Origin: Micromonospora sp. WMMD1155
GTDB taxonomy: Bacteria; Actinomycetota; Actinomycetes; Mycobacteriales; Micromonosporaceae
DNA length: 64,000 nt
Assembly (NCBI RefSeq): GCF_029581275.1
Contig: NZ_CP120742.1
Span: 4,340,501-4,404,500 of the forward strand
Reading direction: 5' to 3'
Shown in pieces: positions 14,413 through 51,064 of this stretch; within the stretch, counting starts at the first letter, position 1; every line of letters begins with the position of its first letter. Below the pieces are notes generated by a model that saw only the letters and a list, made by a program, of their open reading frames with translations, was not told where the DNA came from and ran no database searches. The position numbers were made by a program, and so were the translations under genes.

Positions 14413-14670
14413 TCACGTCCAGCGGCGGCGGAACCGCCACATGATGGCCGCGTTCGCCACCAGCACCACCGCGCAGATCGCACCGGTCAGCCGACCGGCG
14501 AACACGGCTATCGCCGGCAGCGACGCCCACAGCACGATGGTCAACAACATCAGGTAGCGGCCCCTGCGGGCCCGGACCCGGTGGTCCAGCCGCTTGAAGA
14601 ATGCCGGGTCGCTCTCCCGGAGCTGACGGGTGATCTGGTCGAACCTGCGCTGATCCTCTTTGCTGAGCAT
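14413..14670 (-). CDS. DUF3040 small membrane protein
   Basis: Protein of 85 residues of the actinobacterial DUF3040 type. The N-terminal half is a charged cytosolic helix (LSKEDQRRFDQITRQLRES), followed by two hydrophobic segments at about 40-58 and 60-77 and the basic end RFRRRWT. Function is unknown; the family is widespread in actinomycetes. It converges on the SWIM-finger gene with a four-base gap. Confidence 0.75.
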   Translation of the reverse strand: MLSKEDQRRFDQITRQLRESDPAFFKRLDHRVRARRGRYLMLLTIVLWASLPAIAVFAGRLTGAICAVVLVANAAIMWRFRRRWT

Positions 14671-15136
14671 GGCGCTGCCTTCCCCTCACGCGTTCAGCGG
14701 TTCGGCGGCATACCCGCTGTGGTGCCGGCTCACGCTCGCCTGCTGCAGCTACTTTTCCTCCTCGCGAGGCCCGGTGACGTCGAGCGCGCAGACCATCGTG
14801 AGGTCACCTCATGTCCGGCTTACCTGAACCTTAAGTTTGTCTGTGGTCGTGAACGACGCGGAAAGTGGCGCGTACGGCGGTGTGGTCCGGTCCGTACCCG
14901 GCCGCCGCACGTCCGCCCTGCTGAGAAGGTCTGCGCCCGTCCCCGCCCCGCCGACCGGCGCAGAAGCCGCACTGAACGCTGTCTTAAGTGCCCTCGGGAG
15001 GGTGTTCGGCCCACCTTGAAGGGCCCCGGGGGCTTGGTTACCTTGCCGTAGCAACTCCCCTCAGGCAACAGTCGCCGCACCTGCCGCACCTGCCCGGTCG
15101 CAGCTTCCGGCGCTCATCAGAAATCGGGATTGGTAC
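14671..15136. other. 466-bp gap upstream of the DUF1800 operon, no gene seen
   Basis: I find no convincing coding sequence here: short frames on both strands have unlike codon use and no ribosome site. The left end should hold the DUF3040 promoter and the right end holds the candidate operon promoter at 15016-15044. An AT-richer patch (CTGAACCTTAAGTTTGTC, about 14824-14841) stands out from the surrounding GC-rich sequence and may be a regulator or promoter site. Confidence 0.5.
15016..15044 (+). promoter_or_regulatory. Candidate promoter of the DUF1800-ApbE operon
   Basis: TTGAAG at 15016-15021 and TACCTT at 15039-15044 are separated by exactly 17 bases, a sigma-70-like layout. It would give a leader of about 85 nt before the ATG at 15137. 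Both hexamers are imperfect, so this is a candidate only. Confidence 0.4.
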
Positions 15137-17221
15137 ATGGCCGACCAGAATGTGCCACCACGTCAACCGCGGGACGACCGCGGTTGGGACGGACGCCAGC
15201 ACCACAACGCGGACGGCTACGGCGACCCCAACGCGTCCGCGCCCTACGGGTACGACTCGCCCCACCCCTACCAGGGCGGCTACCCCGCACCGGCCGACCC
15301 CCGTGAGCAGTACGGCGAGGGTTACGCGTACGCCGGGCAGCCCGCCCCGCGCGGGCCGCAGTGGGTCGGCCCGGAAGGGCTCGGTCACCAGGTAGCGGCG
15401 CGGCCCGGCACCGGACTGCCCACTCTGGACGACGACGAGTCGGGCCCCAGGGTCGGCCGGCGCAAGGCGATGGTGGCCCTCGGCGGCACCGCCGCCGTCG
15501 TCGCCGGTGGCGCGGCGCTCGCCATGACCCCGCAGCTCCGCGGCATCTTCGGTGACGAGGTGGCCGGTGACGCCACCGGCAGCACGGTCACCGACGGCAC
15601 CGCCGCACGGCCCAGTGGCCAGCAGCCCAGCACGGTGCGTACCTACACCGAGCAGAACGAGAGCTACATGGGCTCCCGGGCCGGTGAGGCGCTGAAGAAG
15701 AACGCGCCGGCCGGTGGACGGATCCTCTCCGGCCCGGCCGCCGCCGCCGCGGCGACCGAGGTGACGGTGAAGACGGTGCTGGCCAAGGACCCGATCCTGC
15801 ACCTGGCCCGCCGGGCCACCTTCGGGCCCACCCCCGAGGTCGTCGCCGACATCAAGAAGCAGGGCATCGACGCCTGGGTCCGCGCCCAGTTGGACCCGGA
15901 CAAGATCGCGCCGAGCAAGGCCGAGCTGAAGCTCGCCGAGCTGCCCACCCAGAAGCTCAGCGTGCAGCAGTTGCGGACCCAGCGGGACCAGCTCAACGAG
16001 CAGGGCGCCCAGCCGGAGCGGGAGATGGTCGACGCGACCATCGCCCGGCAGATCTGGTCGAAGCGCCAACTCTTCGAGGTGATGGTCGACTTCTGGAACG
16101 ACTTCCTGCACGTGGCGGCCGACTTCGACGGTGGCGAGGTCTACCGCAACTCGTTCGACCAGGACGTCGTGCGTAAGCACGCGCTGGGCAGCTACCCGGA
16201 GATGCTGATCGCGGCGAACAAGCACCCCGCGCTGCTGATCTACCTGAACCAGAAGGACTCCCGCAAGGACGCGATCAACGAGAACCTCGCCCGGGAGAAC
16301 CTCGAGCTGTACTCGGTCGGCGTCGACGGCGGCTACAAGGAGCCGGACGTCCGCCAGGCCGCCATGCTGCAGACCGGCCGTGGCATCGACAAGGACGGCA
16401 AGTACGTCTTCAGGCCCGAGCAGCACTACGTCGGCAAGGTGAAGATCCTCGGCTTCACCCACGCGAACAACTCGTCGGACCCGAAGAAGGCCGACGCGGC
16501 GATCGACGCGTACATCACCTACATCGCGCTGCACCCGTCGACGGCCAAGTACGTGGCGCAGAGCCTGGCGACCCGGTTCGTCTCGGACACTCCGCCGAAG
16601 TCCCTGGTGGACCGGCTGGCCAAGGTCTACACCTCCAACAACGGCCTGATCAAGCCGGTGCTGATGGCGATGTTCTGCTCCACCGAGTTCTGGGCCGCCG
16701 TGGGCCAGAAGGTGCGCCGCCCGATGGAGTACCTGGTCGCCACGTACCGCACCCTGGGCGTCTCGCCGGAGGCGTCGCCGAAGCACAACAACGGCGACAA
16801 CAAGCGCACCCCGTACGCGCGGGGCCTGCGGCAGATCCACGACAAGCTGCGCGAGTTGGGCCAGTTCCCGATGGGACACCCCACCCCGGACGGCTACCCG
16901 GACGTCTACGTCGCCTGGACGTCGGCCGGCACCATGGTCAACGGCTGGAACGAGGCGGGCGAGATCCTCGCCGGCTACCGCACCACCTTCACGTACACGG
17001 CGCCGGAGAAGCTGGTCGCCAAGCCGCCGGCCACCGCCGGGGCGTACGTGGACGCGCTCTCGATGCGCCTGGTGGGCCAGAAGCTGAGCACCCGGGAGAA
17101 GAACCTGATCCTCGGTGTCGCCGGCGTCGCGGCCACCGCCAAGGTCGACGCCACGTTCAACGGGGCCATCACCGCCGTCGCGCGGGCGATCCTCGCTTCC
17201 CCCCAGCACCACCTCCGGTGA
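15137..17221 (+). CDS. DUF1800 domain protein with twin-arginine-like signal
   Basis: Protein of 694 residues. A Pro/Gly/Tyr-rich N-terminal tail (about 1-105) precedes GRRKAMVALGGTAAVVAGG, a twin-arginine-like signal or anchor, so the bulk is probably outside the membrane. The DUF1800 domain covers roughly residues 210-690: HLARRATFGPTPEVV, then LFEVMVDFWNDFLHV, and ENLARENLELYSVGVDGGY. The family has no firmly assigned activity. DUF1800 and DUF1501 genes are commonly found side by side in bacteria, as here. It is first gene of a five-gene operon that also encodes a transmembrane flavin electron-transfer set. Confidence 0.85.
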   Translation: MADQNVPPRQPRDDRGWDGRQHHNADGYGDPNASAPYGYDSPHPYQGGYPAPADPREQYGEGYAYAGQPAPRGPQWVGPEGLGHQVAARPGTGLPTLDDDESGPRVGRRKAMVALGGTAAVVAGGAALAMTPQLRGIFGDEVAGDATGSTVTDGTAARPSGQQPSTVRTYTEQNESYMGSRAGEALKKNAPAGGRILSGPAAAAAATEVTVKTVLAKDPILHLARRATFGPTPEVVADIKKQGIDAWVRAQLDPDKIAPSKAELKLAELPTQKLSVQQLRTQRDQLNEQGAQPEREMVDATIARQIWSKRQLFEVMVDFWNDFLHVAADFDGGEVYRNSFDQDVVRKHALGSYPEMLIAANKHPALLIYLNQKDSRKDAINENLARENLELYSVGVDGGYKEPDVRQAAMLQTGRGIDKDGKYVFRPEQHYVGKVKILGFTHANNSSDPKKADAAIDAYITYIALHPSTAKYVAQSLATRFVSDTPPKSLVDRLAKVYTSNNGLIKPVLMAMFCSTEFWAAVGQKVRRPMEYLVATYRTLGVSPEASPKHNNGDNKRTPYARGLRQIHDKLRELGQFPMGHPTPDGYPDVYVAWTSAGTMVNGWNEAGEILAGYRTTFTYTAPEKLVAKPPATAGAYVDALSMRLVGQKLSTREKNLILGVAGVAATAKVDATFNGAITAVARAILASPQHHLR

Positions 17222-17229
17222 GGCACCCG

Positions 17230-18612
17230 ATGGAGAAGACTGTGTACAACTCTTTCCCCCTGCACCCCGAATGCCCCGACGTGCGGCGGCTGGCCGACAA
17301 CCCGGCCGAGGCGATGCTGCGCGCGGAGGCGGACATCGTCGCCGCCGAGAACGCCGCCGAGCTGGACCGCTACCGCACTCTCGAGAACCTGGAGGAGGCC
17401 CAGCAGGACGGTCGCGGCGTCACCCGGCGGACCTTCGTCGCGGGTGCCGCGGCCACCGCCACCGCCCTGGCCACGGCCCAGTTCGTCACCACGTCGGCGT
17501 CGTTCGCGGCGACCAAGACCGGCACCCTGATCCACGTCTTCCTCTACGGCGGGCTGGACGGGCTGAGCCTGGTCGCACCGGACAACGACCCGGTGCTCAG
17601 CAAGGCCCGCCCCGACCTGCTGCTCGGCAACGACTCGTTGGCCCTGGGCCGCGGGTTCAAGCTGACCAGCGCGTTCAAGCCGCTGGAGAAGTGGCTCACC
17701 GCCGGCCAGCTCGGCTTCATCCCGGGCGTCTCGGACGAGCGGCTGTCGCGCAGCCACTTCCAGGCCGCGGACGCCTGCAACCTGGGCGGACTGCCCAACG
17801 AGACCGGTGGTCGGGGCTGGCTGGACGGTCTGGTCGACAACCTGGGCAAGGGCACCGCGTTCCGCAGCGTCGGCATCGGCAGCACGCTGCCCCGCTCGCT
17901 GGTCGGCAACAACGGCGCGTTGTCGCTGAACAGCGTCGGATCGTTGCGGCTCAACGGCGACGAGAAGTACCGGGCGGCCACCGAGAAGGCCATCAAGGGG
18001 CTCTTCACCGGGATCAACCACCCGGTCGAGGAGGCCGTGCAGGAGGGCATGGGCGCGCTGGCCACCGCCCAGAAGCTCGCCGCCAAGCCGTACGAGCCGG
18101 TCGAGGGCGTCACGTACGAGGGCGTCGGGAACGCGTTCAAGCAGCTCGCCCAGCTGATCAAGGGTGGCGCCAACGTCCGGGTCGCCACGGTCGGCATGGG
18201 TGGCTACGACACCCACGAGAACCAGGGCACCAGTGCGGGTGGCCAACTGCACCGCCGGTTGAACGAACTGGCCAAGGCCATGGCGGCCTTCTTCACCGAC
18301 CTCGGTCCGCAGGCCGCCGACGTGACGATCATGGTGTCCAGCGAGTTCGGCCGCCGGGTCGGCTCCAACACCGGCGGCACCGACCACGGGCACGGTGGCG
18401 TGGTCACGGTGCTCTCCGGCAAGAAGCTGGCCGGCTCCCTGCTGGGCACCTGGAACGGGCTGGACAAGCTGGACTCCGGTGACGTGCCGGAGTACAACAA
18501 CATGTTCAACGTCTACGGCGCGGTGGCACAGGGCCGGTTCGGGCTCACCAACGCCGAGGTCCAGAAGGTCTTCCCCCGCCAGAAGTACGCCCCGATGAAG
18601 CTGTACGCGTGA
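17230..18612 (+). CDS. DUF1501 domain protein with internal twin-arginine motif
   Basis: Protein of about 460 residues of the DUF1501 family, related to the alkaline phosphatase/sulfatase fold; activity not established. A twin-arginine motif VTRRTFVAGAAATATALA starts near residue 64, after a long N-terminal region, suggesting folded export. The core starts LIHVFLYGGLDGLSLV; later VATVGMGGYDTHENQG and STDHGHGG-like TDHGHGGVV supply the metal-type His/Asp residues. ATG at 17230 is preferred because GGTGAGG lies six bases ahead. A GTG at 17218 overlapping the DUF1800 stop is the alternative and would add four residues. Confidence 0.85.
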   Translation: MEKTVYNSFPLHPECPDVRRLADNPAEAMLRAEADIVAAENAAELDRYRTLENLEEAQQDGRGVTRRTFVAGAAATATALATAQFVTTSASFAATKTGTLIHVFLYGGLDGLSLVAPDNDPVLSKARPDLLLGNDSLALGRGFKLTSAFKPLEKWLTAGQLGFIPGVSDERLSRSHFQAADACNLGGLPNETGGRGWLDGLVDNLGKGTAFRSVGIGSTLPRSLVGNNGALSLNSVGSLRLNGDEKYRAATEKAIKGLFTGINHPVEEAVQEGMGALATAQKLAAKPYEPVEGVTYEGVGNAFKQLAQLIKGGANVRVATVGMGGYDTHENQGTSAGGQLHRRLNELAKAMAAFFTDLGPQAADVTIMVSSEFGRRVGSNTGGTDHGHGGVVTVLSGKKLAGSLLGTWNGLDKLDSGDVPEYNNMFNVYGAVAQGRFGLTNAEVQKVFPRQKYAPMKLYA

Positions 18613-20027
18613 CGTACCCGCACACCCACGCCGCCGGCCGTCGTACCGGGACCTCGTCCCGGCACGGCGGCCGGTCGGCTGCCCCCGTACCCCCGCAGAT
18701 CCCGGACCGGCGCGGACCCGGCGGCCGACGGCTGCTGGGCGTGCTGCTCCTGGTCGGCCTGGTCGCCAGTGTGCTGCCGTGGTGGTTGGGCACCCCCGCC
18801 GGTTCGTTGCGCAGCACCGCGGCCACCGTCACGGCGGCGGGCCGGATCACCGGCCTGATCGCCGGCTACCTGCTGCTGGTGCAGGTGCTGATGATGAGCC
18901 GGCTGCCCGTGCTGGAACGCTGGATCGGCGGCGAGCAGATGGCCCGCTGGCACCGCGACGTCGGGGCGACGCTGCTGGTCGCCGTGCTGGCGCACCTGTC
19001 GCTGATCCTCGTCGGCTACGCGGACCTGCGGAACCAGTCGATAATCGCCGAGGTCGGCACGCTGCTCGGCGACTACGAGGACATGGTCTCGGCGTTCGTC
19101 GCCACCGGCATCATGATGCTGGTCGGCTTCAGCAGTGTCCGGGCGATCCGGCGGGCGTTGCCCTACGAGCTGTGGCACGCGCTGCACCTGTCCAGCTACC
19201 TGGTCCTGCTGCTCGGCTTCGGCCACCAGTTCACCCACGGCGCCCAGTTGTACAAGCCCGGTCCGGTGCGTACCGGCTGGATCGCGCTCTACCTGCTGGT
19301 GGTCGCCGCCCTGCTCTGGGGGCGGGTGATCGCGCCACTGGCGTTCAACCTGCGGTACAAGCTGCGGGTCGCCGACGTGGTCGCGGAGAGCCCGGACACC
19401 ATCTCCATCTACCTCACCGGTGAGCGCCTCGGTCGGCTGACGATGCTCGGTGGCCAGTACTTCCGCTGGCGCTTCCTCACCCGAGGTTGCTGGTGGCAGT
19501 CGCACCCGTTCTCCGTCTCCGCCGCCGCGAACGGTCGCTGGCTGCGGCTCACCGTCAAGGTCGTCGGCGCGCACACCGCGGACCTGCGCGACCTGGAGCA
19601 GGGCACCCGGGTCTGGGCGCAGGGCCCGTCGGGCACCTTCACCGCCGCGCACCGGGTCCGGGAGCGGGCCCTGCTGATCGCCGGCGGCAGCGGCATCACG
19701 CCGATCCGGGCCATGTTGGAGGAACTGCCCCCGGGCGCCGCCCTGATCTACCGGGCCCGCACCCCGGCCGACGTGCTGCTCAGCCGGGAGCTGGACTGGC
19801 TGGCCCAGGAACGGGACACCTCCGTCTGGTACGTCATCGGCTCCCGCGACGACCCCGGCCCCCGCCAGCTGATCAGCCCGGACGGGTTGCGTCAGCTGGT
19901 GCCCGACGTGGCCCGGCGCGACGTCTACCTGTGCGGGCCACCCGGGCTGGTGGAACAGTCGGTGCGCGCGCTGCGCCGTGCCGGTGTGCCCCGGCGGCAG
20001 ATCCACCTGGCCACGTTCGAGCTGTAG
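18609..20027 (+). CDS. Ferric reductase-like membrane protein with FAD/NAD(P)H domain
   Basis: Protein of 472 residues predicted to pass electrons from cytosolic NAD(P)H through FAD and haem across the membrane. After a basic N-terminal tail come about six membrane segments. Two histidine pairs spaced for haem are visible: the His of ARWHRDVG with that of LAHLSL, and those of LWHALHLSSY with FGHQFTHG. The soluble C-terminal half is a ferredoxin-NADP reductase module: QYFRWRF, the FAD motif HPFSVSAA, the NAD(P) motif IAGGSGITPIRAM and YLCGPPGLVEQ. GTG at 18609 overlaps the DUF1501 stop (GTGA). Confidence 0.88.
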   Translation: MTYPHTHAAGRRTGTSSRHGGRSAAPVPPQIPDRRGPGGRRLLGVLLLVGLVASVLPWWLGTPAGSLRSTAATVTAAGRITGLIAGYLLLVQVLMMSRLPVLERWIGGEQMARWHRDVGATLLVAVLAHLSLILVGYADLRNQSIIAEVGTLLGDYEDMVSAFVATGIMMLVGFSSVRAIRRALPYELWHALHLSSYLVLLLGFGHQFTHGAQLYKPGPVRTGWIALYLLVVAALLWGRVIAPLAFNLRYKLRVADVVAESPDTISIYLTGERLGRLTMLGGQYFRWRFLTRGCWWQSHPFSVSAAANGRWLRLTVKVVGAHTADLRDLEQGTRVWAQGPSGTFTAAHRVRERALLIAGGSGITPIRAMLEELPPGAALIYRARTPADVLLSRELDWLAQERDTSVWYVIGSRDDPGPRQLISPDGLRQLVPDVARRDVYLCGPPGLVEQSVRALRRAGVPRRQIHLATFEL

Positions 20028-20040
20028 GAAGGGCACCCCC

Positions 20041-20640
20041 ATGCGTCGCGCGTTCCTCGCGATCACCGGCCTGGCCGCCAGCACCACCGCGCTGGTCGTC
20101 TTCAAGGGCTCCCCGGCCACCAACCAGGTCGCCCAGAACCTGCCGACCGTCCAACCGGTCGACCCCACCGGGCAGGTCGTCGACCCGGGCGCCGACCCGA
20201 ACGCGCCGGGCACCGACCCGGCGGACGGCGCGGCGACGCCGTCCAGGAGCGCCGACGCGCCGGTGTCGCCCAAGCCCGGCAAGACCACCGCCCGCCCGTC
20301 GGCCACCAAGACCACCAAGGCCCCGAGCGCGCCACGCACCACCAAGCCACCCCAGTCGACCAACCGCCGGGTCACCGGAGCCGGCTTCGACAACGAGTAC
20401 GGGTACGTGCAGGTGCAGATCGTGGTCTCCGGCAACCGGATCGTCGAGGCCGTCGCGTTATCGCTGCCCAGCGGCGGCGAATCCGACATCCACAGCAGCG
20501 ACGTCAGCAACGCGTACGACGGCACCGGCGGGGAGGTGGTGCGGAAGCAGAACGCCAACCTCAACACCGTCTCCGGTGCCACCGAGACCAGCAACTCCTA
20601 CAAGCAGTCGCTGCGGTCCGCCATCGAGCAGGCGTTCTGA
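20041..20640 (+). CDS. Exported FMN-binding protein
   Basis: Protein of 199 residues. An N-terminal hydrophobic segment (AFLAITGLAASTTALVVF) exports or anchors it, followed by a long Pro/Thr/Lys-rich linker (about 35-108). The FMN-binding domain carries the flavinylation motif SGAT at 178-181, where Thr181 would hold covalent FMN. It would act outside the membrane, taking electrons from the haem/FAD protein encoded just upstream (13-bp gap). The flavinylating enzyme ApbE is the next gene, one base after the stop, strongly supporting this role. Confidence 0.88.
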   Translation: MRRAFLAITGLAASTTALVVFKGSPATNQVAQNLPTVQPVDPTGQVVDPGADPNAPGTDPADGAATPSRSADAPVSPKPGKTTARPSATKTTKAPSAPRTTKPPQSTNRRVTGAGFDNEYGYVQVQIVVSGNRIVEAVALSLPSGGESDIHSSDVSNAYDGTGGEVVRKQNANLNTVSGATETSNSYKQSLRSAIEQAF

Positions 20641-20641
20641 C

Positions 20642-21412
20642 GTGTCGACCGCGCTGACCCGACCGGGTCTCTGCCGGGTCGAGCAGATCATGGGTACGGC
20701 GATCACGGTGGACCTCGCCGACGACCTGCCACCGGCACGGGCGGGTGAGCTGGCGGACGACGTCTTCGCCTGGATGCGCGAGGTGGACGCCCGCTTCAGC
20801 ACGTACCAGCCGGACAGCGAGGTGTGCCGCTTCGACCGGGGTGAGGTGCTGCTCTCCGAGGCGTCGGCGGACCTGCGGTTCGTGCTGGAGACCTGCGCCG
20901 ACCTGTGGGGCGTCACCGACGGGTTCTTCGACGCGTACGCCACCGGGCGGCTCGACCCGTCCGGTTTCGTGAAGGGCTGGGCAGCGCAGGTCGCCTCGGA
21001 CCGGCTGCTCGCCGCCGGTGCCGCGAACCACTGCGTGAACGCCGGCGGCGACGTGCGCGTACGCGGGATGTCGCCCTCCGGGGAGCCGTGGCGGATCGGC
21101 ATCCGGCACCCGTGGGACGCGATGGCGACCTGCCTGGTGCTCACCGGGACCGATCTGGCCGTGGCCACCTCCGGGGTCTACGAGCGGGGTCGGCACGTGC
21201 TGGACCCGCGCCGGGGCGCGCCGGCCGGCGGGCTTCGCTCGGTGACCGTCGTCGGCACCGACCTCGGGGTTGCCGACGCGTACGCCACCGCCGCCCTGGC
21301 CATGGGAACCGCCGGTCGCGGCTGGCTGGATCGCCTGGACGACCACACCCACGCCGTCGTCACCGACGACGCCCGCCACTACTACTCCGCCGACATCCCG
21401 CTGACCGACTAG
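20642..21412 (+). CDS. apbE: FAD:protein FMN transferase (ApbE)
   Basis: Mg-dependent enzyme of 256 residues that attaches FMN from FAD to a Ser/Thr of a target flavoprotein; the likely target is the FMN-binding protein encoded directly upstream. Family landmarks are the N-terminal MGTAITVDL, the FVKGWAAQ stretch, VNAGGDVRVRG and the metal-binding tail of the active site ATSGVYERGRHVLDPRRG. No signal peptide is evident, so it probably acts in the cytosol or uses its target before export. GTG start at 20642. The stop shares CTAG with the stop of a small converging frame. Confidence 0.88.
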   Translation: MSTALTRPGLCRVEQIMGTAITVDLADDLPPARAGELADDVFAWMREVDARFSTYQPDSEVCRFDRGEVLLSEASADLRFVLETCADLWGVTDGFFDAYATGRLDPSGFVKGWAAQVASDRLLAAGAANHCVNAGGDVRVRGMSPSGEPWRIGIRHPWDAMATCLVLTGTDLAVATSGVYERGRHVLDPRRGAPAGGLRSVTVVGTDLGVADAYATAALAMGTAGRGWLDRLDDHTHAVVTDDARHYYSADIPLTD

Positions 21413-21570
21413 CGGATCGGGCGGTGGGTGCCGGCCGGGCGGGAACCGGTGGGGCGGGGGCGGCCGGGGCGCGAGCCGGACGGTCGGGTGCCGGCCCAGC
21501 CGTGTCGTCGGTGGCCGCGTCGGGGCGGTTCGGTGCCGCCCGGATGGGACGCTCTGTCGTTCGTGGACAT
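21409..21570 (-). CDS. Possible small basic Arg/Pro/Gly-rich protein
   Basis: Frame of 53 residues, beginning MSTNDRASHPGGTEPPRRG and ending in a run of Arg, Pro and Gly (THRPIR). A clear ribosome site, GGGGGAG, lies two bases before the ATG at 21570, closer than ideal. It is in the strand direction of the primase-like gene, 107 bp downstream of it, and its TAG stop shares the palindrome CTAG with the apbE stop. Low-complexity composition means it could be chance; no homology is recognised. Confidence 0.3.
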   Translation of the reverse strand: MSTNDRASHPGGTEPPRRGHRRHGWAGTRPSGSRPGRPRPTGSRPAGTHRPIR

Positions 21571-21677
21571 GTCTCCCCCGATCGTGGCGCGCGCTCGCGC
21601 CGTCCCCCTGTCAACGAGGACCCGCGCCCCGGCGACGCTGTCGGTCACCGGATGGATCGTCGGACGGGGCGTCTTCT

Positions 21678-22358
21678 TCACATTCCTCGTCGGGGCAGCG
21701 GCAGGTGACCGGGCACCAGGTCGGGGGTGAGCGTCACCCCGGTGGCGCGTAGCGCCCCGATCAACGTGTTCTGCACGAGGTACGAATCCGGAAGTCGCCA
21801 GCGGGCCTGCTCGGGGGCGACCGCCCAGCGGACCGTCCCCTCGGGCAGCCGGGTGGGTGGTGCGGGGATCCACGAGCCCGGTCCGTGCCGGACCACGTGG
21901 AAGCAGTGCTCCAACTCCGGCCGCAGCGGGTCGCCGGGGCGGACCAGGAACATCCACCGCCCGGTGGGCGTGGCCAGCACCGGTCCGCGTACGCCGGTGC
22001 CGGCCGGGTGGATCCGCACCGCGTCGAGCACGAGCCGTCCGAGGTGGGTGGGCACCTCCAACACGTCGAAGGCCCGGCCGGTGGGCAGCAGCACCCCGTG
22101 CGGGCGGCTGCGCCACCAGGTCGCCACCCGGGCCGGGTCGGCGCTGGCGGCCAGTTCCCAGTTCTCCAGGGCGGGGTGGCAGCCCACCGTGGGACAGCCG
22201 GCCCGGCCGCAGACGAAGCGACTGCGGGCCAGACAGGCCCCCGGGGTGACCTGCCAGCCGTGTGCGGCGTACCGCATGGCGACCCGGCGCAGCCGGACGC
22301 GTTCCAGCGGCGACAGTTCGACGACGCGCGGTCCGACATTCCCCCACATGTGTGCCAT
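21678..22358 (-). CDS. Primase-polymerase (prim-pol) domain protein, catalytic motifs degenerate
   Basis: Protein of 226 residues with the N-terminal fold of bifunctional DNA primase/polymerases. The family zinc/turn region is recognisable (CGRAGCPTVGCHPALENW, where active members usually have GKHP), followed by ATWWRSRPHGVLLPTG. The metal-binding DxD stretch reads AFDVLEVP and the motif II His is missing in TPTGRWMFLV, so catalysis is doubtful. No helicase domain follows. ATG at 22358 follows a GAGGAGGGGAG site. It diverges from an XRE regulator across a 237-bp gap. A regulatory or structural role is as likely as DNA synthesis. Confidence 0.75.
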   Translation of the reverse strand: MAHMWGNVGPRVVELSPLERVRLRRVAMRYAAHGWQVTPGACLARSRFVCGRAGCPTVGCHPALENWELAASADPARVATWWRSRPHGVLLPTGRAFDVLEVPTHLGRLVLDAVRIHPAGTGVRGPVLATPTGRWMFLVRPGDPLRPELEHCFHVVRHGPGSWIPAPPTRLPEGTVRWAVAPEQARWRLPDSYLVQNTLIGALRATGVTLTPDLVPGHLPLPRRGM

Positions 22359-22445
22359 CTCCCCTCCTCGGGCCCGGCGTTCGCCAGGTCCCATGTCGAG
22401 CACCGTCACTGCCGTAACCCACGATCGTTGAGGTTGACGAACGGC

Positions 22446-22462
22446 TCGTGCAACTTGCACGA
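22446..22462. promoter_or_regulatory. 17-bp perfect palindrome, candidate operator
   Basis: TCGTGCAACTTGCACGA is a perfect inverted repeat with 8-bp arms and a single central base. It lies in the gap between the divergent primase-like gene (start 22358) and XRE regulator gene (start 22596), 134 bp before the latter. It is a natural binding site for a dimeric HTH protein. Binding by the adjacent XRE regulator is inferred. Confidence 0.55.
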
Positions 22463-22595
22463 AAAGTACGAGGACTGGCTGTCCGGCTGACGTACATCGT
22501 GTGCGACCAGCGGAAACGTGAAAGTGAATGAAGGCCGCCGCGCCCGGGGACATCGCTTCGACTCGATCGGTCGTCGCGCAGGGGAGGATGGGGAG

Positions 22596-26138: not shown

Positions 26139-27293
26139 GTGGCGCCGCGCGTCGTCACCGTCGAGGCCGACGGCGGGTCCCGGGGCAATCCCGGCCCCGC
26201 CGGCTACGGCGCGGTGGTCCGTGACCCGGAGACCGGCGAGGTGCTCGCCGAGCGCTCCGAGTCGCTCGGCACGGCGACCAACAACGTCGCCGAGTACCAG
26301 GGGTTGATCGCCGGGCTGACCGCCGCCGCCGAGGTGGGCGCCAGCGAGGTGGACGTCCGGATGGACTCCAAGCTGGTGGTCGAGCAGATGTGCGGCCGGT
26401 GGCAGATCAAGCACCCCGGCCTGCGACCCCTCGCCGCCCAGGCGGCCGGGCTGGTCGGCCGCTTCGCCGCGGTCCGGTTCGCCTGGATTCCCCGGGACCA
26501 GAACCGGCACGCCGACGCGCTCGCCAACGCCGCCATGGACGCCGCCGCCGGCCGACCCACGTCGACCGGCGCCGCCGCCCCGGCGGTCGGCAGTGACCCG
26601 GCGACCGCCCCAGCGGTCGGCAGTGACCCGGCGACCGCCCCGGCGTCCTGGGAGCCCCGGCCGACCTTCACCGCCACCCGGCTGATCCTGGTCCGGCACG
26701 GCGAGACCGAGTACACCGAGCAGCGCCGCTACTCCGGGCGCGGCGACGTGCCGCTGTCCGAGAAGGGCCGGGCCCAGGTCCGCGAAACCGCCACGAGGGT
26801 GGCCGCGCTGGCCCCGACCGTCGCGGCCGTGCTCAGCTCACCGCTGTCCCGGTGTACGGCCACCGCGGCGGCGATCGCCGCCGCGCTCGGTGACGTGCCG
26901 GTGCGTACCGAGGACGACCTGATCGAGTGCGACTTCGGCCAGTGGGAGGGGCGCACCTTCGCCGAGGTACGCGAGGGGTGGCCGGGGGAGATGGACGCCT
27001 GGCTCGCCTCACCCCGGGTCGCCCCGCCGGGCGGGGAGTCGTTCACCCACGTCGCCGAACGCGCCCAGCGCGTCGTGGCGGGGCTGCTCACCGCGTACCC
27101 CGGGGAGACCGTGGTGCTCGTCTCGCACGTCTCGCCGATCAAGCTGGTGCTGCGCGACGCCCTCGCCGCCGGCGACGGGTTCCTGCACCGACTCTTCCTG
27201 GACGCGGCCGGGATCTCGGTGCTCGACATGTGGCCCGACGGCGGCGTCGCCGTCCGCACCGTCAACGACACCTCCCACCTCGCCGGCCTCTGA
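26139..27293 (+). CDS. Bifunctional RNase H / histidine phosphatase
   Basis: Protein of 384 residues with two enzymes. RNase HI-like domain (about 1-140) has all four acidic residues: Asp in VEADGGSRGNPG, Glu in NNVAEYQGL, Asp in RMDSKLV and Asp in HADALANA; it cuts RNA in RNA-DNA hybrids. The C-terminal phosphoglycerate-mutase-like domain (about 180-384) has LVRHGETEYT and the second His in VLVSHVSP. The M. tuberculosis relative Rv2228c pairs RNase H with an alpha-ribazole phosphatase (CobC) activity. The linker is built from a 30-bp tandem duplication. GTG start at 26139. Confidence 0.92.
   Translation: MAPRVVTVEADGGSRGNPGPAGYGAVVRDPETGEVLAERSESLGTATNNVAEYQGLIAGLTAAAEVGASEVDVRMDSKLVVEQMCGRWQIKHPGLRPLAAQAAGLVGRFAAVRFAWIPRDQNRHADALANAAMDAAAGRPTSTGAAAPAVGSDPATAPAVGSDPATAPASWEPRPTFTATRLILVRHGETEYTEQRRYSGRGDVPLSEKGRAQVRETATRVAALAPTVAAVLSSPLSRCTATAAAIAAALGDVPVRTEDDLIECDFGQWEGRTFAEVREGWPGEMDAWLASPRVAPPGGESFTHVAERAQRVVAGLLTAYPGETVVLVSHVSPIKLVLRDALAAGDGFLHRLFLDAAGISVLDMWPDGGVAVRTVNDTSHLAGL
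26583..26642. repeat. 30-bp tandem duplication in the RNase H-phosphatase linker
   Basis: Two copies, 26583-26612 and 26613-26642, differing at one base and in frame, encode AVGSDPATAP twice in the linker between the two enzyme domains. Being a multiple of three it changes linker length without disrupting the frame. Confidence 0.9.
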
Positions 27294-49722: not shown

Positions 49723-49926
49723 ATGAGCGACAGCGGACGTGGTGGGCAGTTCTACTGGTGCACCCGGCATCACCGGGTCGAGACGGACGCCGACGTGTGT
49801 CCGGCGAAGCACGTACTCGGCCCGTACGACTCGGCGGCCGACGCGGAGAACGCCCTGCAACGAGTGCAGGAGCGGAACGAGGCGTGGGATGCCGAGGACG
49901 CTCGTTGGGCCGGGGAGGACAGATAG
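49723..49926 (+). CDS. Small conserved hypothetical protein
   Basis: Protein of 67 residues with FYWCTRHHRVETDADVCPAK (one possible Cys/His metal site), then the conserved LGPYDSAADAENALQRV and an acidic end. Similar small proteins are frequent in streptomycetes and relatives; function unknown. ATG at 49723 is the first good start after the divergent M48 gene. Confidence 0.7.
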   Translation: MSDSGRGGQFYWCTRHHRVETDADVCPAKHVLGPYDSAADAENALQRVQERNEAWDAEDARWAGEDR

Positions 49927-50005
49927 GCGGCGCGGGACGGCTCGCGCCGAGGCATTTCGTGCTCCGCGACGCACGCGAGAGCACGTCCCCGAGGAGGGAA
50001 CCACG

Positions 50006-51064
50006 ATGGCCGAAGCACAGCAGGCCACCACCCGTCCGACTGCCCGACGTACCACCGCGAAGAAGACCGCCGCGGCGGAGCGGAACACGGCGGCGAGCCG
50101 GACCACCCCCGTCCGCAAGTCCACCGCGGGTGCGACGGCGGCGAAGGCCCCGGCGCGCAAGGCGGCCGGCGGCGCGGGGCGTGCCCCGGCCAAGAAGACC
50201 ACCACGGCGGCCAAGAAGGCCCCCGCGAAGAAGGCCACCACGACGAGCAGGACCACCACGACGAGCACGGCCAAGAAGGCCCCGGCGAAGAAGACCACGA
50301 CCCGCACGACGACGGCCGCGGCGAAGCGGGCCCCGGCATCTCGCACCTCCACCGCCGCCGCGTCGCGGCCCTCGACGCGGCCCGCGACGCGCAAGAGCAC
50401 CGCGACCGCGAAGAAGACCACCGCCGCCGCGAAGAAGACGACGGGTACGGCGAAGAAGACCACCGGTGCCGCGAAGAAGACGGTGAGCGCCGCGAAGAGG
50501 ACCACCACCTCGGCGGCGAAGAAGACCACCGCCGCGGCGAAGGCGCCGGCCCGCAAGACCGCCACCGCGACGAGGGCAACGGCGCGGAAGACCGCGACCG
50601 CGGCGAAGGCGCCGGCCCGCAAGACCGCCACCGCGGCGAAGGCGCCGGCCCGCAAGACCGCCACCGCGGCCAAGGCACCGGCGCGGAAGACCGCGACAGC
50701 GGCGAAGGCACCGGCGCGGAAGACGGCGGCGAAGGCGTCCGCCGTCAAGAAGACGGCGGCGAAGAAGACGGCCGTCACGAAGGCCGCCGTCAAGAAGGCC
50801 CCGGCGAAGAAGGCCGCGTCCACCCGACCCAGCGGTGGCGCTCGCAAGGCCCCGGCGAAGAAGGCCCCCGCCGCAAAGGTGACCGGCACCTCATCGACGA
50901 CCGCGCGCAAGGCGGCGGCGAAGAAGGCACCGGCGAAGAGGACCGTCGCCGCCAAGGCCCCGGCCCGCAAGGTCACCGCCCGCAAGTCACCGGCCCGCCC
51001 GGTCGCCGCCCGCGCCACCGCCCCCCGGGGTACGCGCAGCACCGCCCGGAAGGCCACCGGCTGA
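50006..51064 (+). CDS. Histone H1-like Lys/Ala-rich DNA-binding protein
   Basis: Protein of 352 residues made almost only of Ala, Lys, Thr, Arg and Pro, with AAKK, APAKK and ARKTA repeats throughout. It resembles the basic tails of actinobacterial HU/HupB and eukaryotic histone H1, but no folded HU domain is present. A run of KAPARKTATAA repeats (about 175-240) is encoded by 33-bp DNA repeats. It should bind DNA without sequence preference and compact it. ATG at 50006 follows GAGGAGGG. Repeat number may vary between strains. Confidence 0.85.
   Translation: MAEAQQATTRPTARRTTAKKTAAAERNTAASRTTPVRKSTAGATAAKAPARKAAGGAGRAPAKKTTTAAKKAPAKKATTTSRTTTTSTAKKAPAKKTTTRTTTAAAKRAPASRTSTAAASRPSTRPATRKSTATAKKTTAAAKKTTGTAKKTTGAAKKTVSAAKRTTTSAAKKTTAAAKAPARKTATATRATARKTATAAKAPARKTATAAKAPARKTATAAKAPARKTATAAKAPARKTAAKASAVKKTAAKKTAVTKAAVKKAPAKKAASTRPSGGARKAPAKKAPAAKVTGTSSTTARKAAAKKAPAKRTVAAKAPARKVTARKSPARPVAARATAPRGTRSTARKATG
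50540..50735. repeat. 33-bp repeats inside the H1-like gene
   Basis: About five in-frame copies of a 33-bp unit encoding GCGAAGGCGCCGGCCCGCAA-type sequence (KAPARKTATAA), nearly identical at DNA level. Multiples of three keep the frame. Confidence 0.8.

Follow-up and report, generated by a model that had tools for sequence, protein, structure and literature searches.

Linkage of a DUF1800-DUF1501 gene pair to an MsrQ-like flavinylation unit in Micromonospora

Organization of the five-gene block

A 64,000-nucleotide stretch of DNA from Micromonospora sp. WMMD1155 (hereafter the window; C1:4340501-4404500 of the 7.34-Mb genome) carries five consecutive forward-strand genes, in which DUF1800 and DUF1501, two widespread families of exported proteins, are joined to a flavin-based electron transfer unit. 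The block begins with the DUF1800 gene (15137-17221; 694 aa; PF08811) and the DUF1501 gene (17230-18612, ATG start; 460 aa; PF07394), here called the pair. These are followed by the genes for an MsrQ/NOX-like membrane reductase (18609-20027, GTG start; 472 aa), a flavin mononucleotide (FMN)-binding protein of the FMN_bind family (20041-20640; 199 aa; PF04205) and an ApbE FMN transferase (20642-21412, GTG start; 256 aa; PF02424), here called the trio. Pfam confirmed the identities of all five genes, including the reductase, and the operon-like layout given in a preliminary description of this DNA was right in its coordinates and gene calls.

The genes are closely packed. At the DUF1800/DUF1501 junction (17218-17230, forward strand) an alternative GTG start at 17218 would give a 4-nt overlap with the DUF1800 stop; the DUF1501 stop and the reductase start overlap in the sequence GTGA (18609-18612, forward strand); and the spacing is 13 nt between the reductase and FMN_bind genes and 1 nt between the FMN_bind and apbE genes. 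A consensus scan of the coding strand from 14600 to 21800 revealed no terminator-like sites. From this layout we infer that the pair and the trio may share a transcription unit. In 22 listed loci, out of 71 in which pair and trio are linked, the overlap between DUF1501 stop and reductase start measures 4 nt in 15 and 8 nt in four, while a gap of 1 nt was found in two rows (one contig, fetched twice) and a gap of 104 nt in one; the script picked the in-frame start closest to the DUF1501 stop, which biases these counts towards overlaps.

The flavin-based electron transfer genes

The reductase combines a ferric-reductase transmembrane domain with flavin adenine dinucleotide (FAD) and NAD(P) domains (Ferric_reduct, 52.5 bits; NAD_binding_1, 42.2 bits; FAD_binding_8, 24.4 bits). 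Four histidines, H115, H129, H193 and H206, are invariant in all 38 aligned sequences and would be the haem ligands. Its sequence relatives in the PDB are FAD-binding FR-type proteins (8qta and others), which we take to be bacterial NOX of Streptococcus. The FMN_bind protein matches PF04205 at 23.3 bits, barely above the cut-off of 22, and consists of an N-terminal hydrophobic anchor, a Pro/Thr/Ser-rich linker and a region with the flavinylation motif SGAT at residues 178-181. ApbE was detected at 152.5 bits; it begins directly at the catalytic core, and no signal peptide was seen. In a sample of the class, the ApbE start was readable in 17 of 20 loci, and inspection by hydropathy and by eye found a signal-like stretch in none of them. 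The likely substrate of such a signal-less ApbE is the N-terminally anchored, linker-bearing exported FMN_bind protein, and flavinylation by cytosolic ApbE ahead of export is one possible answer to how the two proteins meet.

The preliminary description had recognized this flavinylation unit, which Pfam and the SGAT motif confirm, and had proposed an undescribed extracytosolic redox system. MsrQ-like flavinylation systems of Actinobacteria have already been published (Meheust et al. 2021, PMC8238504). As described there outside the supplementary cluster tables, they share with our trio a PF01794 membrane protein with a C-terminal PF00175 domain and an FMN_bind gene with the motif [S/T]GA[S/T] next to apbE, whereas the neighbours named are VIT1 and NuoF-like genes rather than DUF1800 and DUF1501; in the window, the trio lies downstream of the DUF1800-DUF1501 pair. 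Judged by its domains and motifs, the trio is a known kind of redox unit, MsrQ-like in type, and the claim of an undescribed redox system is therefore unsupported. For the linkage of the DUF pair to a flavin unit, no literature report was found outside those supplementary tables, which may list it.

The DUF1501 and DUF1800 proteins

The DUF1501 protein (PF07394, 70 bits) has a twin-arginine translocation (Tat)-type motif at R66-R67. According to an AlphaFold2 (AF2) model and fold comparison, residues 92-460 adopt the fold of the alkaline phosphatase superfamily, and the protein is predicted to be of the phosphatase/sulfatase kind, a prediction that speaks against the earlier suggestion of DUF families acting as redox partners. 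The superfamily includes NPP, PafA, EptC/MCR, LtaS, BcsG and the sulfatases; DUF1501 resembles them in its predicted fold and possibly in its conserved Asp/His set but shares only about 10% identity with them in structural alignments. Residues D110, S175, H176, D327, H329 and H386, candidates for a metal-binding set and a nucleophile, are invariant in 66 of 66 sequences, as read from an alignment rather than from mapping of ligands in three dimensions. The predicted fold and the invariant residues point to a concrete enzyme class for assay. Upstream of the Tat motif, the N-terminus is lengthened by a helical, conserved segment of about 65 residues (window 17230-17424). An extension of at least 40 residues was found in 68 of 69 linked loci versus one of 46 unlinked loci, mostly close kin; it is missing from one linked locus (L171) and from Phytohabitans, and present in L188, in which no trio was found.

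The DUF1800 protein (PF08811, 385 bits) contains an all-helical domain at residues 222-691. Its AF2 model is confident, with 421 residues at a predicted local distance difference test (pLDDT) score of at least 90, and no solved structural relative of it was found. An RR is followed by a hydrophobic stretch at residues 112-130, as judged by hydropathy. Ahead of both lies a tail of about 107 residues (window 15137-15460) that is of low complexity, rich in Gly, Pro and Tyr, and probably cytosolic. The CxxCH haem motif was found in none of 63 DUF1800 sequences, and no conserved redox-cofactor motif was found in either the DUF1800 or the DUF1501 family. The literature retrieved by family name, as far as its text was available, states no function for DUF1800 or DUF1501. 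Two further DUF1800-DUF1501 pairs are present in the same genome (G000:C1:2025215-2026480 and 1509046-1510284; L101 and L102); their Tat-type signals are short, and a flavin unit was not found alongside them.

Conservation of the block in Micromonosporaceae

With the DUF1800 protein of the window as query, 68 named loci were retrieved, of which 56 have the full five genes and eight end at contig edges. One metagenome-assembled genome (L099) has four genes, and its remaining 3.8 kb yielded no ApbE. In three Phytohabitans loci, with flanks of about 10 kb per side, the pair stands alone. The window DUF1800 shares 93% identity with its counterpart in Micromonospora cabrerizensis (best segment) and 96% with an M. 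chokoriensis copy. The gene arrangement is kept beyond chance, is old within the family and is not an accident of one strain. Within Micromonospora, 111 genomes were surveyed for orthologues of the reductase (E <=1e-120) and of DUF1501 (E <=1e-100): the reductase was found in 85, DUF1501 in 78, the reductase only in seven and neither in 26. The two genes are adjacent in 77 of the 78 genomes with DUF1501; in the exception, G432, they lie on different contigs. In another genome, G400, the match covers only the C-terminal half of DUF1501.

Distribution of pair and trio beyond the family

Across the class, we examined a sample of 197 genomes, incomplete ones included, with statistics that ignore kinship. 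DUF1800 was detected in 70, ApbE in 121 and FMN_bind in 80. DUF1800 and ApbE occur together in 44 genomes, DUF1800 only in 26, ApbE only in 77 and neither in 50 (odds ratio 1.10, p 0.88); the corresponding numbers for DUF1800 and FMN_bind are 33, 37, 47 and 80 (odds ratio 1.52, p 0.18). Co-occurrence of DUF1800 with either at the genome level is no better than chance. Moreover, 26 of the 70 genomes with DUF1800 gave no match to ApbE or to FMN_bind, and six of these (G091, G103, G125, G145, G165 and G184) each consist of one contig of 1.2-1.5 Mb with completeness of at least 99%. DUF1800 lies within 50 kb of FMN_bind in three of the 33 genomes with both, all of them Micromonospora, many of the assemblies being fragmented. 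Among 40 class loci with flanks, the pair is present in all and the trio in two, again both Micromonospora; some of the fetched loci were chosen to widen the spread or to provide contrast and do not form a random sample.

DUF1800 and DUF1501 form a two-gene unit in several phyla. Ten annotated plasmid contexts (of 53 records matched), from Thermus, Actinomycetota, Acidobacteriota and Proteobacteria, have the pair without annotated FMN_bind, ApbE or ferric reductase genes, although the gene tables are incomplete. Three of these pairs (Azospirillum, Rhodobacter and Paracoccus) lie amid polysaccharide genes, and a Sphingomonas plasmid pair is flanked by cytochrome oxidase genes. On a Thermus thermophilus plasmid (L198), DUF1800 is annotated as two pieces around an IS982 transposase, with DUF1501 intact. 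DUF1800-DUF1501 operons, some next to chitin synthase genes, are in print (PMC5122149). In the available part of that report, both families lie in one predicted operon and DUF1501 has a twin-arginine motif, as here; the neighbouring genes there encode chitin synthase and sugar epimerase, in contrast to the flavin electron transfer unit of the window.

Separate occurrence of the two modules at one syntenic site

The relatives compared share a syntenic site with a DUF3040 gene on one side and Prim-Pol, helix-turn-helix, flavoprotein-like and NIF3-like genes on the other (the last two labels were assigned by us). This site is occupied by pair and trio in Micromonospora L033 and L162, by the trio only in L158, L159, L160, L163 and L164, and by the pair only in L092 and L095 and likewise in L094, which lacks the Prim-Pol match. 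The pair-only state belongs to Phytohabitans and the trio-only state to relatives of Micromonospora. In L161 the trio is present with its reductase spread over two frames. In L157 an intact trio is preceded by the last 109 residues of DUF1501, a remnant that overlaps the reductase. DUF1800 is broken over two frames in L162 and L093, which, as for the L161 reductase, may be due to mutation or assembly error. Since both modules are found apart at one syntenic place, neither the pair nor the trio needs the other. This also calls for caution in inferring function from operon linkage in a single clade. In the window, the gene for the Prim-Pol N-terminal domain (21681-22553, reverse strand) adjoins the operon, and this synteny is kept in most of the relatives compared, with or without pair or trio.

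The trio is the wider state; in many further genera of Micromonosporaceae, the loci fetched carry it without the pair. A reductase tree of 44 sequences, made by a quick method, has four changes between linked and alone over 43 labelled rows, three of which are forced by starred branches; it is consistent with one joining event, after which the pair was lost from two genera and from a subclade of Micromonospora. The DUF1800 tree (65 rows) nests Phytohabitans within the linked clade (support 100). Its exact position within that clade has a support of only 88, so the trio was either lost there or arrived after Phytohabitans had branched off. No FMN_bind match was found in the three Phytohabitans genomes, and their reductase relatives are only 34-46% identical.

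Interpretation of the linkage

We lean towards the reading that the block holds two co-transcribed envelope modules rather than an obligate redox pair. It builds on the gene identities, the synteny, the modules being apart at one place, the predicted folds and the conserved residues; co-transcription, the electron path, enzyme activity and substrate are what we infer from these. The first module would be an MsrQ-like electron exporter driven by NAD(P)H, whose reductase would pass electrons via FAD and two haems to covalent FMN on the anchored FMN_bind protein, the FMN being loaded by ApbE. The second would be the exported DUF1501/DUF1800 pair, with DUF1501 as a putative metal-dependent enzyme that leaves the cell by the Tat route and belongs to the alkaline phosphatase superfamily (possibly hydrolysing or transferring phospho- or sulfo-esters), DUF1800 as its constant helical partner and, probably, a cell-surface polymer as target. 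The modules would have been joined once, in an ancestor shared by Micromonospora, Asanoa and their kin, and would be co-expressed with neither dependent on the other. The preliminary description had taken the linkage to mark DUF1800 and DUF1501 as redox partners. This does not agree with the close orthologues of the pair that lack a trio in three Phytohabitans genomes, with the trio lacking the pair in several lineages or with the 26 DUF1800 genomes noted above; as each half also occurs alone, a single obligate machine is unlikely.

Several observations weigh against this reading. No DUF1501 orthologue was found without the reductase among the 111 Micromonospora genomes (78 of 78), and the maintained linkage and common frame overlaps make a functional tie possible. 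Phytohabitans has kept ApbE elsewhere, with three matches per genome, none beside a reductase relative, and its pair could use another electron carrier. The detection of FMN_bind is marginal (the window copy scored 24.7 bits in the FMN_bind search of the 197 genomes), the template modelling (TM) scores of the Foldseek matches to the DUF1501 model are low (about 0.25-0.35), and the mean pLDDT of that model is 77. In addition, DUF1501 adjoins c-type cytochromes in other phyla. Two of the three DUF1501 genes on plasmid pSINAC01 of Singulisphaera adjoin a PSCyt1-PSCyt2-PSD1 protein with a cytochrome domain, and in four further plasmid loci (Bacteroidota and Alteromonadales) the neighbour of DUF1501 is DUF1553, and the cluster includes a cytochrome gene. 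Two CxxCH motifs are present in the PSD1-type proteins of all 33 IMG/VR loci examined (L246-L278), and a same-strand DUF1501 gene lies within 1 kb of the PSD1-type gene in 28 of them. These loci are filed as viral and are probably bacterial DNA, maybe misfiled. A profile comparison of DUF1501 from the plasmid loci with DUF1501 from the window gave a match in the region of the D-x-H, EFGR and DH motifs (P 5e-5, probability 67.5%). Planctomycete clusters with DUF1501 have already been published (PMC4452313). The PSCyt1-PSCyt2(DUF1549)-PSD1(DUF1553) systems of Planctomycetota and others resemble our block in having DUF1501 by a large partner and a redox protein in or near the unit. They differ in that their partner, at most a putative homologue of DUF1800, bears c-haem motifs, whereas the possible carrier here is a separate flavoprotein. 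With DUF1800 as one kind of DUF1501 partner and the cytochrome-bearing PSCyt/PSD1 proteins as the other, a testable frame is available.

It is accordingly conceivable, though we consider it unlikely, that the pair in this clade has as its electron partner the flavinylated FMN_bind protein, which would take the role that a c-type cytochrome domain has in DUF1501-PSCyt/PSD1 systems (Planctomycetes, Bacteroidota and Alteromonadales), while other carriers supply the pair elsewhere. A lineage-specific electron link of this kind may exist; it is favoured by the linkage being retained over several genera with overlapping frames and by the strict presence of the reductase with DUF1501 in Micromonospora, and the cytochrome neighbours of DUF1501 listed above lend it some indirect support. 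The DUF1800 profile also has some similarity to that of the PSD1 domain (P 0.0007, probability 27%), compared with P 0.15-0.80 for reversed or unrelated controls, but this local match over 65 columns falls short of significance, and the comparison with the neighbouring PSCyt2 domain gave only P 0.054; as a sign of kinship it is weak, a hint and not proof. One of the two search patterns for the IMG/VR loci includes the CH of the inner motif and several loci are near-duplicates, so the 33 loci are not independent cases. Furthermore, the modules separate in both directions, genome-level co-occurrence is absent in the class sample, neither DUF family has a conserved redox motif, and the predicted DUF1501 fold is of hydrolase or transferase type.

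Somewhat less probable still is a broader version, in which DUF1501 enzymes generally use an extracytoplasmic carrier, namely a c-type cytochrome, fused or encoded nearby, in PSCyt/PSD1 systems and, in this Micromonosporaceae clade, flavinylated FMN_bind fed by an MsrQ-like reductase, with DUF1800 as a haem-free and distant relative of PSD1. If true, flavin would replace haem within one conserved extracellular chemistry, and the Micromonospora flavin unit would be a second way of feeding electrons to DUF1501 systems. Lastly, that pair and trio are unrelated chance neighbours, held together by a frame overlap that is costly to break in a compact GC-rich genome, would need only one joining event and would suit both the trio repeatedly outlasting the pair and the truncated DUF1501 of L157 that still overlaps an intact reductase, but it is the least probable of these explanations in view of retention over several genera and the absence of a pair-only state among the 111 Micromonospora genomes.

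Other features of the window

A Lys/Ala/Pro-rich repeat protein is encoded at 49739-51061; it resembles the histone H1-like protein HC2 at 29.3 bits, below the cut-off of 40. An AT skew of 0.414 at 50-52 kb is probably due to this HC2-like repeat gene. At 26139-27290, an RNase H domain is fused to a histidine phosphatase domain.
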